In this document: positions 1 through 59,592 of the stretch, piece by piece
How positions within the stretch are numbered: the first letter of the stretch is position 1
Layout of the letters: each line of letters begins with the position of its first letter
The notes under the pieces: model-generated
What the model was told of the DNA's origin: nothing
The model's database searches: none
Seen by the model: only the letters and a program-made list of their open reading frames with translations
Source of the DNA: Acidobacteriota bacterium
Lineage (GTDB): Bacteria > Acidobacteriota > Thermoanaerobaculia > Multivoradales > JBCCEF01
Length of the DNA stretch: 64,000 nt
Direction: 5' to 3'
Assembly: GCA_039028635.1 (NCBI GenBank)
Contig: JBCCHV010000004.1
Location: 1-64,000, forward strand
Translations under genes and position numbers: made by a program

Positions 1-314
1 CCGGCCCGACACCCCGCGCCTCCGGGGCGCGGCGGCGCCCGGGGGGCGCCGAGGACGGGGGTAAGCCCGCACGACATGTGCGTGCGGGCGACAGGAGCGG
101 CTGTAGACCAAGGCAATCCGTCAACAAAGCAGCCGTGTGCTACTTCCGCACACGGCTCCCGAGCGCGAAGCCGCGAGGCGGCGCCCTGGGGCGCCGAGGG
201 CGGGGGTGAGCCCGCACGACATGTGCGTGCGGGCGAGGGGGGCGCCTTGAGCCCCCCTGAGACAACAGCAGGCGCTGAAGAAGCCGCCACGCGGCTTTTT
301 CAGCAGCCTGCTAG
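1..314. repeat. Structured repeat, family A, copy 1 (left end cut by window)
   Basis: Non-coding, extremely GC-rich stretch made of hairpins. The same stem GCCCGCACG / CGTGCGGGC around the loop ACATGTG occurs twice (65-89 and 210-234). A 10-bp perfect stem AGCCGTGTGC / GCACACGGCT surrounds the loop TACTTCC (131-157). A terminal hairpin AAGCCGC-CAC-GCGGCTT followed by Ts lies at 281-300. The element ends in CAGCAGCCTGCTAG, whose last bases hold the stop codon (read on the minus strand) of the permease gene that starts this window. Related copies lie at 19508-19695 and 38865-39206. Short reading frames inside it are judged spurious. Confidence 0.75.
281..300 (+). terminator. Terminator-like hairpin in repeat A1
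   Basis: A 7-bp stem AAGCCGC / GCGGCTT with a 3-base loop runs into a T run on the plus strand, which is the form of an intrinsic terminator. The same hairpin recurs at 39173-39192 in copy A3. On the minus strand the T run is interrupted, so termination of the permease transcript here is less certain. Confidence 0.5.
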
Positions 315-10540: not shown

Positions 10541-10957
10541 GAGAGCCTCCGCCGGTAGAGAATATGAACAAATATCGATGCTAGCAGGTCGCCGAAAACG
10601 ACGTCCAGGGGCGCCCGGCCAGAGGGGCCCGCCCAGGGGCGCCCGGCCAGGGGCACCCGGCAAGAAGGTCGACAAGGGGGCGGTGGAGTTTTCCAGATCG
10701 ACTGGCGCGGGAAGGTCGCATCGACGGCCCTCCGCTCCGCCGAACCGCCCCCGTCGCACCAGCTCGGACTTTCCACCGGCCCGTTGCGGGCGGAGGCACA
10801 ACTCGCCTGCGGCTCAGACAGATGCCTCCGCTTTTCCTCCACGGCCCGGAAGCCCGGACTCCCCAAGACCTCGGACGCGGGCTCAGGCTGCGCTCCAGAC
10901 CGCCGACGCGACCTTCTCGGACCGACGGGTGCAGGGGAGAAACTGGTCAGCGATCCT
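10541..10957. other. 417-bp non-coding gap with GC-rich tandem units
   Basis: Between pilT and the Fic gene there is no credible gene. Close to pilT (10580-10690) lies CTAGCAGGTCGCCGAAAACG, which resembles the terminal sequence of repeat family A. It is followed by imperfect copies of CAGGGGCGCCCGGCCAG, a unit also seen inside copy A3. This looks like a decayed family A element. The AT-rich stretch CATCGATATTTGTTCATATTCT (minus strand, about 10556-10580) is the likely pilT promoter region. In the rest (10700-10950) I see nothing recognisable. Confidence 0.5.
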
Positions 10958-18674: not shown

Positions 18675-19511
18675 GTGAACGGCAAGCAAAGGCTTTGGAG
18701 CAACATCGCCCTGGTGGGCGCGGGCAAGGTCGGAACCAGCCTGGTGGCCTGGCTTCATGCCCACGGCGCACAGGTCGCACAGGTGGCGACGCGGCGCTCC
18801 GGCGATGGCGGCGAGCAGCTCGCCCGCCGCTACGGTGCGAGGGCCACCCCGCTGGAGGATTTCTCGAGTGCGGGTAGCGACCTCCTGCTGCTGGCGGTGG
18901 CCGACCCCGCCCTCGACCAAGTGGTCGCCGGATTGGCCCAGCGGCCACAGGCCGATGTCGCCCTGCACACCGCCGGCAGCCGTGGGGCCAGCGCCCTCGC
19001 TGCCCTGCGCCATGGGACTCCCGAGATCGCCCTCGGCAGCCTCCATCCACTGAAAGCCTTTCCGACGCCGCGGCCGGATGTCGCCGATGCCGCCGGCGTT
19101 TTTTTCGCCCTCGACGGCGACCCGCCGGCCGTCGCCCTCGGTCTCGAGTTGGCCCACCTCTGGGGCGGCAGAGCGGCGGTCATCTCAGAAGACAAACGGC
19201 TGGCCTACCACGCGGCGGCGACCCTCGCCGCCGGCGGCGTGGTCACCCTGCTGGCCGCCGCCGCCGACCTCGGTCGGCGCCTCGGCCTGCCGGCGGAGGT
19301 CGCCGAAGGCTACTTGGCCCTGGCACGGGGAGCCCTCGATCAGGCCGAAACGGCCGCACCCGACTTCGAGCGAGCCATCACCGGGCCGGTGGCGCGCGGT
19401 GACGAGGCGACCTTCCGCCAGCACCTCGAAGCCCTCGCCGGCAGCGCACCCGAGCTCAAGCCGCTGCTCGAGGAGCTCGCCGCGGCGACGCGGCGCTTAC
19501 GCGACGCCTAG
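18675..19511 (+). CDS. Rossmann-like and DUF2520 domain protein (putative NAD(P)-dependent oxidoreductase)
   Basis: A 278-residue protein. The N-terminal nucleotide-binding fold is shown by ALVGAGKVGTSLV (GxGxxG type), RRS and LLLLAVADPALDQV. The middle has GSLHPLKAF, and the C-terminal half is helical (DKRLAYHAAATLAAGGVVTLLAAA), as in the F420/NADP-dependent oxidoreductase-like DUF2520 family, related to ketopantoate and 6-phosphogluconate reductases. In some genomes these genes sit near pantothenate synthesis, but not here. The GTG at 18675 lies 6 bases after a -10-like box, so it may be leaderless. The stop codon is formed by the first bases of repeat A2. The substrate is unknown. Confidence 0.8.
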   Translation: MNGKQRLWSNIALVGAGKVGTSLVAWLHAHGAQVAQVATRRSGDGGEQLARRYGARATPLEDFSSAGSDLLLLAVADPALDQVVAGLAQRPQADVALHTAGSRGASALAALRHGTPEIALGSLHPLKAFPTPRPDVADAAGVFFALDGDPPAVALGLELAHLWGGRAAVISEDKRLAYHAAATLAAGGVVTLLAAAADLGRRLGLPAEVAEGYLALARGALDQAETAAPDFERAITGPVARGDEATFRQHLEALAGSAPELKPLLEELAAATRRLRDA

Positions 19512-19695
19512 CAGGTTGCTGAAAAACTCGTCGGCAACCTGCGACCGGGCCCGAGAGGGCCCGGCGGCGAAGCCGTGAGACGGGGTGAGCCCGAAAAATC
19601 GCACTTTTTCGGGCGAGGGGGCGCTCAGCCCCCTGAAATAAACAGCTAGCAGCGCTGGAAAAGTCGCGAATCGGACTTTTTCAGCAGCCTGCTAG
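19508..19695. repeat. Structured repeat, family A, copy 2
   Basis: This 188-bp element starts CTAGCAGGTTGCTGAAAAAC and ends CAGCAGCCTGCTAG. Hairpins in order are GCAGGTTGC / GCAACCTGC (19511-19542), GGGCCC-GAGA-GGGCCC, GCCCGAAAAA / TTTTTCGGGC (19589-19614), and AAAAGTC / GACTTTT (19659-19680). The third stem sits where A1 has GCCCGCACG / CGTGCGGGC, so the stem sequence has changed on both sides while pairing is kept. Its first bases include the TAG stop of the upstream gene. Confidence 0.75.
19659..19681 (+). terminator. Terminator-like hairpin in repeat A2
   Basis: Stem AAAAGTC / GACTTTT with an 8-base loop followed by a T run, about 150 bases after the DUF2520 stop codon. It occupies the same place in the element as the AAGCCGC hairpin in copies A1 and A3 but has a different stem sequence. 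Confidence 0.5.
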
Positions 19696-32030: not shown

Positions 32031-32759
32031 GTGAACTCTTCCGGCAACCCCGCAGAGCGAATTTCGACTCCGCAGTCCACCGGGCGCTCTCCGCGACAGC
32101 TCGCCGAGCACCTCTCGGCACGGCTCGACGACCAGCCGGTGTCGCTCACGATGACGCGAAACCGGTCGCGAATCCTTTCGGCGCGACCGCGCCGCACGGT
32201 CCCCGGCCTGGTCGTTCGCCTCCACGAGTGCTTTCTCGACGCCCCTTGCGAGGTGCTCGCCGCGGTGGCCCGCCTGTGCCGCCCGGAAGCGCCACGATCA
32301 GCCGACCGGGCGACCGTGAGGAGCCACTTCGAAACCCACGTCGCACCACCACCGCGCCGCCGTCCGCGGCTGCGAACCACCGGCCACCACTTCGACCTGC
32401 AGGAGGTCTTCGACCGCCTCAACGGCGATCACTTCGCAGGCACCATCACGGCCGCCATCACCTGGGGCCGGCGGCCGCCTCGGCGGCGCCGGCGGCGCAG
32501 CATTCGCCTGGGCTCTTATCAGGCCATCGACCGCGTGATTCGTATCCACCCGGCGCTCGATGCTCCCCATGTGCCGGGCTACGTGCTGGAGACGGTGATT
32601 CACCACGAAATGTTGCATGCCGCATTCCCGCCCCAGGAGACGGCCAGCGGTCGGCGCCGCATCCACACGGCGGAGTTTCGCGCCCACGAGCAGGCCTTCC
32701 CGGCTGCCGAGGCCGCCCGCAGGTGGCTCGATCGCCACCTCGAGAGTCTGCTCGTTTAG
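32031..32759 (+). CDS. SprT-like zinc metalloprotease-family protein
   Basis: A ~242-residue basic protein. The C-terminal part has the SprT-type core: FDRLNGDHFAGTITAAITWG, IRLGSYQAIDRVIRIHPALD, then the zinc motif HHEMLHAAF (HExxH form) and RRIHTAEFRAHEQAFP, whose His may be the third ligand. Such proteins are related to DNA-protein crosslink proteases. The N-terminal half is Arg-rich and poorly conserved. The start is uncertain; the GTG at 32031 is chosen because a TAGTAT -10-like box lies 7 bases upstream, which would make it leaderless, and a TTG at 32001 is an alternative. The stop codon is the first triplet of repeat B1. Confidence 0.8.
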   Translation: MNSSGNPAERISTPQSTGRSPRQLAEHLSARLDDQPVSLTMTRNRSRILSARPRRTVPGLVVRLHECFLDAPCEVLAAVARLCRPEAPRSADRATVRSHFETHVAPPPRRRPRLRTTGHHFDLQEVFDRLNGDHFAGTITAAITWGRRPPRRRRRRSIRLGSYQAIDRVIRIHPALDAPHVPGYVLETVIHHEMLHAAFPPQETASGRRRIHTAEFRAHEQAFPAAEAARRWLDRHLESLLV

Positions 32760-32939
32760 CCCGGCCTTCTCACGAAGTTTCCTCGCGAGAGGCCTTGGGT
32801 TCTTGAAGATGCAAGGCATCCGTCGCTGCCACGACGACGCCGTACTCGCCGTACTGCGAGGAGAGCAGGCGACGGATAACGCAGCAGATTCCGGGACATA
32901 CGGACGCGCAGCGGAAAGCTCGTGAGAAGGGCGGGTTAG
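32757..32939. repeat. Interspersed element, family B, copy 1
   Basis: A 183-bp element with inverted ends, TAGCCCGGCCTTCTCACGA at the left and TCGTGAGAAGGGCGGGTTA at the right. Inside, CCGTCGC and GCGACGG pair across a ~50-base GC-rich loop. It is nearly identical to the reverse complement of 59411-59592. It supplies the stop of the SprT-like gene (TAG) on the left and the stop of the binding-protein gene (TAA, minus strand) on the right. It has no transposase and no credible gene. Confidence 0.8.
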
Positions 32940-38779: not shown

Positions 38780-38864
38780 AACGGCCTCCTGGCGATGCCG
38801 GAAAAGTCGAGGGATCATTCCCTCGTAGGCAGAACGAGCCAGGCTGCCATTTGATTGCGACCTG

Positions 38865-39206
38865 CTAGCAGGCTGTCTCAGGGGGGCTAAAAGGCGCCCC
38901 CCTCGAGCCAACGCACATGTCGTTGGCTCTCACCCCTGGCCGGGCGCCCCCGACCTCGGCGCCTTCGCCGCCGCCTCGCCCTTTGGGCTCGGAGACCGTC
39001 TGCTGGAGTAGCAGACGGTGCCTACTGCCGGCAGGCGGCCCCGTCCTCGGTCCAATCCTGGACGGGGGTGAAGGCGCGCGACATGCGCGAAGCCGGGCCG
39101 CGTAGGCCTGAGGGGGGCGCCTTTTAGCCCCCCTGGCCGGGCGCCCCTGAAATAAACAGCAGACTGCTGAAGAAGCCGCCACGCGGCTTTTTCAGCAGTC
39201 TGCTAG
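38865..39206. repeat. Structured repeat, family A, copy 3 (complete)
   Basis: A 342-bp element bounded by CTAGCAGGCTG and CAGCAGTCTGCTAG. GGGGGGCTAAAAGGCGCCCCCC near the left end is the reverse complement of GGGGGGCGCCTTTTAGCCCCCC near the right end, so the whole element can fold back. Inside are hairpins GAGCCAACG / CGTTGGCTC with loop CACATGT (38905-38929), ACCGTCTGC / GCAGACGGT with loop TGGAGTA (38995-39019), and AAGCCGC / GCGGCTT followed by Ts (39173-39192). The loops match A1 (ACATGT core; TACTYC read on the opposite strand) although the stems differ. The right end contains the stop codon of the RidA-family gene. It fills the gap between that gene and the thioredoxin-like gene. Confidence 0.8.
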
Positions 39207-39589
39207 CGGGCGGCTGTGGCGGTGACCTTGATCTTGCCGTCGAAGGGTAGGCGGGCGGCCTCGTAGATGGTGCGGGCGGGGCGCCGGCCGGCCGGGAAGA
39301 GCTCGCAATAGAGCTGGTTGACGGGCTCGAGCTCGGAGAGGTCGGCGAAGGCCAGGTCGACGAAGACGATCTCTTCCTTCGAAAATCCGGCGGCGCGGGC
39401 GGCGGCGAAGAGGTTGCCGAAGGCGCGCTCGGCCTCTTCGCGGATCGTGCCCGGAACGTATTGACCGGCCGCATCGACGGAGAGCTGGCCACTGATGAAG
39501 CACAGGCCGTTGACCACCACGGCGTGGCTGATCGGGTTGCTCCAGGCGGGCAGGCCGGGGCCGTCGGCGATGAATCGGCGTTGGCTCAT
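39203..39589 (-). CDS. RidA-family protein (arginine-containing type)
   Basis: A 128-residue YjgF/RidA-fold protein. Members with the active-site Arg deaminate reactive enamine/imine intermediates made by PLP enzymes. Conserved segments are LCFISGQLSVDAAGQYV, FGNLFAAARAAGFSKEEIVFVDLAF and the C-terminal GRRPARTIYEAARLPFDGKI, which keeps the Arg of the RPAR motif. The last part, KVTATA, lacks the usual Glu pair. It follows the SGNH hydrolase gene by 30 bases and has a GAGGAG site. Its stop lies in repeat A3. Confidence 0.88.
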   Translation of the reverse strand: MSQRRFIADGPGLPAWSNPISHAVVVNGLCFISGQLSVDAAGQYVPGTIREEAERAFGNLFAAARAAGFSKEEIVFVDLAFADLSELEPVNQLYCELFPAGRRPARTIYEAARLPFDGKIKVTATAAR

Positions 39590-58867: not shown

Positions 58868-59413
58868 ATGGATCGCATGCGTTGCGTGGTACTTCTGCTG
58901 GCAGTCTGCTCGCTCTGGTTCTGCATTCCTTGCGGGCTGGCCGCGCCGAGCGATGAGCTGCGTCTCGAGATTCATAAGACTGACCGCAACTTGCGCCTGT
59001 GGCGCGGTGAGAAGCTGGTGGCGCGGGTGCCGATCGGCCTCGGCTTCGAGCCGCGAGCCGACAAGCTGCGCGAGGGGGACGGTGCCACTCCGGAAGGCCG
59101 TTTCGAGGTCTGCATCAAGAATCCCCAGAGCCAGTACTACCTCTCCCTCGGTCTGACCTATCCCAACGCCGAAGATGCCGCGCGCGGCCTGCGCACCGGG
59201 CTGATCGACGAGGCAGACCATCGACGCATCCTGGCAGCCCTCGAGCGCGGCCACTGTCCGCCTTGGGACACCGCCCTCGGCGGCGAGATCTTCATTCACG
59301 GTCGCGGTGCCGGGAGCGACTGGACCCTCGGCTGCGTCGCTCTCGACGACGCCGACATGAAACGCCTCTTCGACCTCGTCCCGGTGGGCACGGCGGTCGA
59401 GATCAAGCCTTAG
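58868..59413 (+). CDS. Exported L,D-transpeptidase (YkuD family)
   Basis: A ~181-residue protein with a signal peptide (VVLLLAVCSLWFCIPCGLAA). The YkuD domain starts LRLEIHKTDRNLRLWRGEKL and has GDGATPEGRFEVC. The active site HGRGAGSDWTLGCVALDD holds the conserved His and the catalytic Cys. Such enzymes make 3-3 crosslinks or attach proteins to DAP residues, which fits the DAP-type MurE upstream. An ATG at 58877 is also possible. The stop codon is the first triplet of repeat B2. Confidence 0.9.
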   Translation: MDRMRCVVLLLAVCSLWFCIPCGLAAPSDELRLEIHKTDRNLRLWRGEKLVARVPIGLGFEPRADKLREGDGATPEGRFEVCIKNPQSQYYLSLGLTYPNAEDAARGLRTGLIDEADHRRILAALERGHCPPWDTALGGEIFIHGRGAGSDWTLGCVALDDADMKRLFDLVPVGTAVEIKP

Positions 59414-59592
59414 CCCGCCCTTCTCACGAGCTTCCGCTGCGCGTCCGTAGGTCCCCGAATCTGCTGCGTTATCCGTCGCCTGCTCTCCTCGCAGTACGTC
59501 GAGTACGGCTGCGTCGTGGCAGCGACGGATGCCTTGCATCTTCATGAACCTACGGCCTCTCGCGAGGAAAACTCGTGAGAAGGCCGGGCTAG
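59411..59592. repeat. Interspersed element, family B, copy 2
   Basis: A 182-bp element nearly identical to the reverse complement of 32757-32939. It starts TAGCCCGCCCTTCTCACGAG and ends GTGAGAAGGCCGGGCTAG. The left end supplies the TAG stop of the L,D-transpeptidase gene. Short frames across it encode near-identical peptides (MQGIRRCHDAAVLDVLRGE type) in both copies; this reflects the DNA repeat and is not evidence of a gene. Confidence 0.8.

Follow-up and report, generated by a model that had tools for sequence, protein, structure and literature searches.

BOX elements of Streptococcus pneumoniae and S. suis are modular, with a middle module (boxB) between end modules (boxA and boxC), a predicted fold, a variable number of modules and ends resembling those of insertion sequences, and in S. 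suis one kind of middle module occurs between different pairs of ends (PMC3049150). MITEs of the IS5 family are short, lack a transposase, carry IS5-type terminal repeats and are flanked by a YTAR duplication; MITEs are usually AT-rich (PMC10969869). The insertion sequences of the IS5 family with a DUF772 transposase (NF033581) are autonomous, about 1.3 kb long and without a structured core, and IS5 prefers CTAG as its target (PMC5493358). BIME/REP and REPIN sequences are high-copy palindromes, linked to RAYT transposases, that occur in mosaics and inverted pairs and lie mostly outside genes.

The repeats analysed here, called family A, come nearest to a modular BOX element or a BIME. The likeness to BOX, judged by architecture only, extends to a core that is flanked by different ends, as is the middle module of S. 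suis BOX, but family A has other sequences and hosts, a CTAG stop-codon target and stems that covary across families, the last two features not being seen in the passages on BOX (PMC3049150). All the features listed above for IS5-family MITEs, except the AT-rich composition, are shared by family A, whereas its ends are each a closed palindrome, its interior is a conserved multi-hairpin core and it is GC-rich. Its ends and CTAG/YTAR target are identical to those of the DUF772-type insertion sequences. With BIME/REP and REPIN it shares copy number, arrangement and location, but it has no RAYT link and possesses DDE-type ends and a target duplication. Family A is probably a composite miniature transposable element with IS5-type ends, CTAG duplication and a conserved folded core.

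The window, that is, the whole stretch of 64,000 nucleotides that was analysed, corresponds to C4:1-64000 of a 6.28-Mb draft assembly in 117 contigs (genome G000). The hairpin stems, loops and positions that the original prediction gave for three copies in the window (A1 to A3; Table 1) were all correct by direct reading, and the three are real repeats, although only A2 is a complete single unit. RNA folding gave z-scores of -8.2 for A2 and -13.0 for A3. The right-end motif TTTTTCAGCAGYCTGCTAG, with at most two mismatches, had 273 matches (140 + 133) in the whole 6.28 Mb and its reversed control none; five end-motif matches fell in the window, against 0.01 in shuffled sequence. In a survey of paired ends covering 1.23 Mb of the genome, the enclosed units were mostly 173-259 bp long, with longer composites and short single hairpins besides, and the multi-copy units had paired ends 38-413 bp apart, too close for a transposase gene. 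The family A copies are composite MITEs of about 190 bp, present more than 100 times in their Acidobacteriota host.

A unit consists, in order, of CTAG, a left hairpin (P1), P2, P3, the linker GGGGTGA, P4, the linker GAGGGG with P5, an A-rich stretch, a right hairpin (P6) and CTAG. Subfamilies with quite unlike left hairpins and stems occur together and recombine (in L187 and L188 the left part of one subfamily type is joined to the middle of another), and modules are exchanged, duplicated or inverted from copy to copy. At window positions 10602-10671 a 14-bp unit (CGTCCAGGGGCGCC-like) is repeated in a short tandem array, which resembles GGGCGCCC stretches that are inserted in some family A copies.

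Table 1. Coordinates of family A features in the window
Feature	Position	Strand	Remarks
Copy A1	1-314	+	Direct partial dimer of the core; truncated at the start of contig C4
A1 stem (P4), GCCCGCAC-GACATGT-GCGTGCGGGC	65-89, again 210-234	+	Read directly
A1 second (extra) hairpin, AGCCGTGTGC-TACTTCC-GCACACGGCT	131-157	+	Read directly
A1 P5	237-257
A1 right hairpin	266-314
A1 right CTAG	311-314	-	Provides TAG stop codon of minus-strand gene to the right
Copy A2	19508-19695	+	Complete 188-bp element; covariance model 143 bits
A2 left CTAG	19508-19511	+	TAG (19509-19511) is stop codon of plus-strand gene to the left
A2 left terminal sequence, CAGGTTGCTGAAAAA	19512-19526	+	Same as IS5-family ends; within left hairpin P1 (19511-19542)
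A2 P2 hairpin	19545-19564	+	Fully Watson-Crick; tandem G.A in stem of most other copies
A2 P4 hairpin, GCCCGAAAAA-TCGCAC-TTTTTCGGGC	19589-19614	+	8-9 covarying pairs, between GGGGTGA and GAGGGG
A2 P5 hairpin, GGGGGC...GCCCCC	19617-19633	+
A2 right hairpin P6	19646-19695	+	Includes right terminal sequence TTTTTCAGCAGCCTG (19677-19691) and right CTAG (19692-19695)
Copy A3	38865-39206	.	Head-to-head composite of two cores around hairpin 38995-39019
A3 core	38822-38992	-	Covariance model match
A3 core	39058-39206	+	Covariance model match
A3 stem, GAGCCAACG...CGTTGGCTC	38905-38929
A3 second hairpin, ACCGTCTGC...GCAGACGGT	38995-39019		Read on minus strand
A3 right hairpin with right end	39157-39206	+	CTAG at 39203-39206
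A3 CTA	39203-39205	-	Stop codon of minus-strand gene 39203-39589 (128-aa ORF)

The ends of family A, CTAG-CAGGTTGCTGAAAAA...TTTTTCAGCAGCCTG-CTAG, and the YTAR target as well, are those of a DUF772 insertion sequence of the IS5 family; the outer 15 bp of the two terminal hairpins are equal to the inverted ends of that insertion sequence. In G013, a genome of the same order, a complete insertion sequence (L209:1440-2785) lies between two CTAG sites; it has inverted ends GAGCTTGCTGAAAAA...TTTTTCAGCAAGCTC and encodes a DUF772- and DDE-domain transposase that scored 254 bits to NCBIfam NF033581 ('IS5 family transposase'). Of 55 relatives scanned, from several phyla, most have CAGG..GCTGAAAAA-like and CAGGYTGCTGAAAAA-like ends together with YTAR duplications; both the left and the right end of one Defluviicoccus copy (L253) are identical to those of family A. 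Terminal repeats, a YTAR-type target duplication and a short multi-copy form, as expected of an IS5-family MITE, were all found in family A, and by these ends and the duplication the copies in G000 and in the sister species G001 are assigned to the IS5-family MITEs. There is little doubt that family A is mobile, with IS5-type ends.

No DUF772 transposase was found in the draft assemblies G000 and G001, so the partner in these species is a putative one; since the repeats break both assemblies, its gene could be hidden, and a DUF772-type partner is present elsewhere in the same order. An IS5-family transposase, either an earlier resident or one missed in the draft assembly, would move the element in trans. 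A DDE_Tnp_1 gene of the same genome was rejected as the mover, the sole match being an unrelated IS4-like insertion sequence inside a family A copy (L119:959-2300, contig C54). In another family of the class (G083), elements of about 280 bp have the same IS5-type ends around an unrelated interior with GAGTCTTGCCG/CGGCAAGACTC inverted repeats (L098, L103, L109, L113, L160 and L161); none were found in the congener G098.

At C1:11506, CTAG-element-CTAG in G000 corresponds in the sister species to an uninterrupted empty site with just one CTAA; in the reciprocal case, an element of G001 lies at ...GTTCTAG and the unoccupied site of G000 is a stop codon (...TTTCTAG). These empty sites support a 4-bp duplication of CTAG on insertion. 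At C5:4054 the element is at the same site in both species, so that some insertions appear old.

CTAG is avoided 7-fold in the genome (559 occurrences against about 3,777 expected). Among 108 element ends with CTAG, the outward continuation is a coding frame terminated by precisely that TAG for 54 and lies in a different frame for 7, against 195 in the stop frame and 198 in other frames for all other CTAGs (p = 4e-9), the gene calls behind these counts having come from a simple codon-usage script in place of a standard gene finder. The same placement holds in the window for A1 (right), A2 (left) and A3 (right), and two copies on contig C5 occupy both stop codons of convergent genes. The original prediction, which had described the hairpins, missed the insertion-sequence ends, the CTAG duplication and this placement. 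A preferential presence of family A at stop codons is likely, and the excess may be due to target availability, purging of harmful insertions or true targeting. With CTAG avoided inside genes, most tolerated targets would be gene ends; an element entering a CTAG stop codon leaves TAG intact on one or both sides through the 4-bp duplication, and copies would survive chiefly at gene ends, where CTAG restores the stop.

In an alignment of 31 copies (15 from G000 and 16 from G001), 97.2% of cells were paired over 34 chosen pairs, against only 39-50% for structures slid by 1-3 columns. Two-sided changes were found at 14 pairs and in 77 cells (shuffled mean 8.1 and shuffled 22.9, respectively), and all nine counted pairs of P4 covaried; the significance of this covariation is approximate, because the structure was named after viewing the sequences and the copies are related. 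A comparison of nearest copies, which is less open to relatedness and to after-the-fact choice of structure, gave for G000, over 285 pair cells, 11 two-sided changes that kept pairing and 8 one-sided changes, where about 1 and 31 were predicted assuming independence at the linker divergence of 5.8%. For G001 it gave 16 two-sided changes that kept pairing, 7 that broke it and 19 one-sided changes, against about 116 one-sided changes expected. Covariation held also for the mini-core over copies from several families. Both the predicted covariation of the stems and the maintenance of the folded form were thereby borne out, and covariation beyond the shuffled and slid controls, with the relatedness of the copies partly controlled for, indicates a structured nucleic acid (RNA or DNA).

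The linkers GGGGTG, GA, GGG and CCC are invariant or nearly so in 33 sequences from several families, and the stems differ. The P2 stem is perfect in 9 copies and contains tandem G.A/A.G in 22, and the base of P4 has tandem G.A/A.G in 32 of the 33 sequences. Departures from pairing comprised 10 G.U and 7 A.C, without strand asymmetry. The suggested selection of the fold as structured RNA or as a DNA hairpin is supported in part: the fold is maintained, but these departures give no sign of a role at the level of RNA or single-stranded DNA. The predicted 'DNA hairpin used in movement' agrees with a mobile, target-duplicating element, but the ends are of the DDE (IS5-family) type, needing no single-stranded hairpin. 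Two conserved G-tracts, GGGG before P4 and GGGG in P5 (columns 3-9 and 41-48 of the 33-sequence alignment; window 19580-19633, for example), could compete for a single C-tract. Almost all P4 stems are also flanked by tandem G.A; a switch or a protein-binding feature is possible.

The core, GGGGTGA-stem-GAGGGG-hairpin-CCCC with tandem G.A at the stem base, is found again in further families with different stems and ends. The covariance model gave 18 matches in another family of the order (G016; best 2.5e-23) and single or few copies in G017, G040 and G129, with differing flanks; in G129 the terminal hairpins are a separate pair that share AGAGCTTGTGAAG, and the element begins at a TGA resembling a stop codon. 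In G016 (L317:262-391, L313 and L318) the GGGGTGA-P4-GAGGGG-P5 unit is tandemly duplicated. A genome of another class of the phylum (G320) contains six copies of 207-244 bp that share this layout, five of them with CTAG at each end, although the end sequences are unlike IS5 ends; in three copies long open frames, judged by open length only, end at TAG on both sides. The model score was modest (1.8e-5, in one genome among 396 searched), and a relationship of this core to family A, more weakly supported, would be suggested by layout and placement besides the score, with convergence possible. A search for an insertion sequence carrying the G320-type ends gave only further non-autonomous copies and chance matches. 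A search of 84,980 named genomes for the exact core pattern gave nothing beyond this genome and its close relatives, which the search may omit.

The folded core would make an insertion harmless or useful at mRNA 3' ends, by termination or 3'-end protection, a role that is proposed tentatively; a plain terminator scan of the elements found no clear intrinsic terminator. Alternatively, the core hairpins would aid mobility and be kept for that reason. The core may be kept folded by selection, for a 3'-end (terminator) role or for mobility, or by template-switch repair. The main rival to selection is that, in quasi-palindromes, template switching during replication or cruciform inversion rewrites one arm from the other, producing two-sided changes, so that stems stay paired without any selection. 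Hairpin loops do occur in both orientations (GAA and TTC in P3, CTGG and CCAG in P4), and in a right hairpin of G001 (L129) the left arm is now a near-perfect complement of the right arm. Such copying leaves the conservation of the linkers among varying stems unexplained, however, and at the base of P4 it would give Watson-Crick pairs in place of the tandem G.A, which makes it a doubtful account by itself. As switching cannot explain the linkers and the G.A steps, selection would keep these and switching would supply the paired changes; we think that both act.

A functional structured RNA (an sRNA or a 3'-UTR element) that transposition only spreads would fit the RNA-like look of conserved linkers, covariation and tandem G.A, as well as the recurrence of the core with different ends in other families and at gene ends in another class, but the lack of strand asymmetry and of any Rfam match speaks against it, and at stop codons the elements have no clear preference of orientation (41 of 74 right ends and 13 of 34 left ends, p = 0.15), leaving this reading rather unlikely. 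IS5-type transposition should need terminal repeats only, and the core could accordingly be neutral filler captured once, as the unrelated interior of the G083 elements might suggest; this is improbable given that the core persists between different ends in G016, G129 and G320 and that pairing is kept between close copies.

Y1 transposition is not known to make a target duplication. Mobilisation of family A as single-stranded DNA by a Y1 (RAYT) transposase, in the manner of REP/REPIN elements, an origin to which high copy number, palindromes, mosaics and two Y1 genes in the genome might point, was rejected as very improbable, since family A flanks neither of the Y1 genes, a different repeat array accompanies one of them, and the ends match DDE elements and are accompanied by a target duplication. 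At L091:2500-3000 a Y1 (REP-type) transposase gene precedes an array of its own, made up of GGTGGCACCTGTGTGCC-like repeats that have no relation to family A.

Returning to a composite element with IS5-type ends, a speculative extension would be a phylum-wide mobile module, in which a folded core between interchangeable terminal hairpins is placed at stop codons, up to both of those of convergent genes, the fold being needed for spread or serving as a ready-made gene-end (terminator or 3'-UTR) part, whatever transposase the ends belong to. Rfam gave no match in the whole window at the gathering threshold and only sub-threshold matches at relaxed thresholds, and a search of the literature gave no account of elements of this kind from Acidobacteriota or at CTAG stop codons, in agreement with the original statement that no named element has these features; subscription journals were mostly outside that search, which is no proof of novelty.

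A gene-dense genome carries more than 100 copies with hardly any damage, the target tetranucleotide being avoided inside genes and used as a stop signal that the duplication restores on both sides of the element. A covarying core with changing ends makes it testable whether the hairpins are kept for the host (transcript ends), for the element (mobility) or by template-switch repair only, and the family A core provides a search model for finding further such elements. The window also contains a second interspersed repeat family of about 180 bp, as an inverted pair (32757-32938 and 59411-59591) with 94% identity over 160 nt; more copies are present on contigs C4 and C5, and a related stretch occurs in the sister genome (L146).
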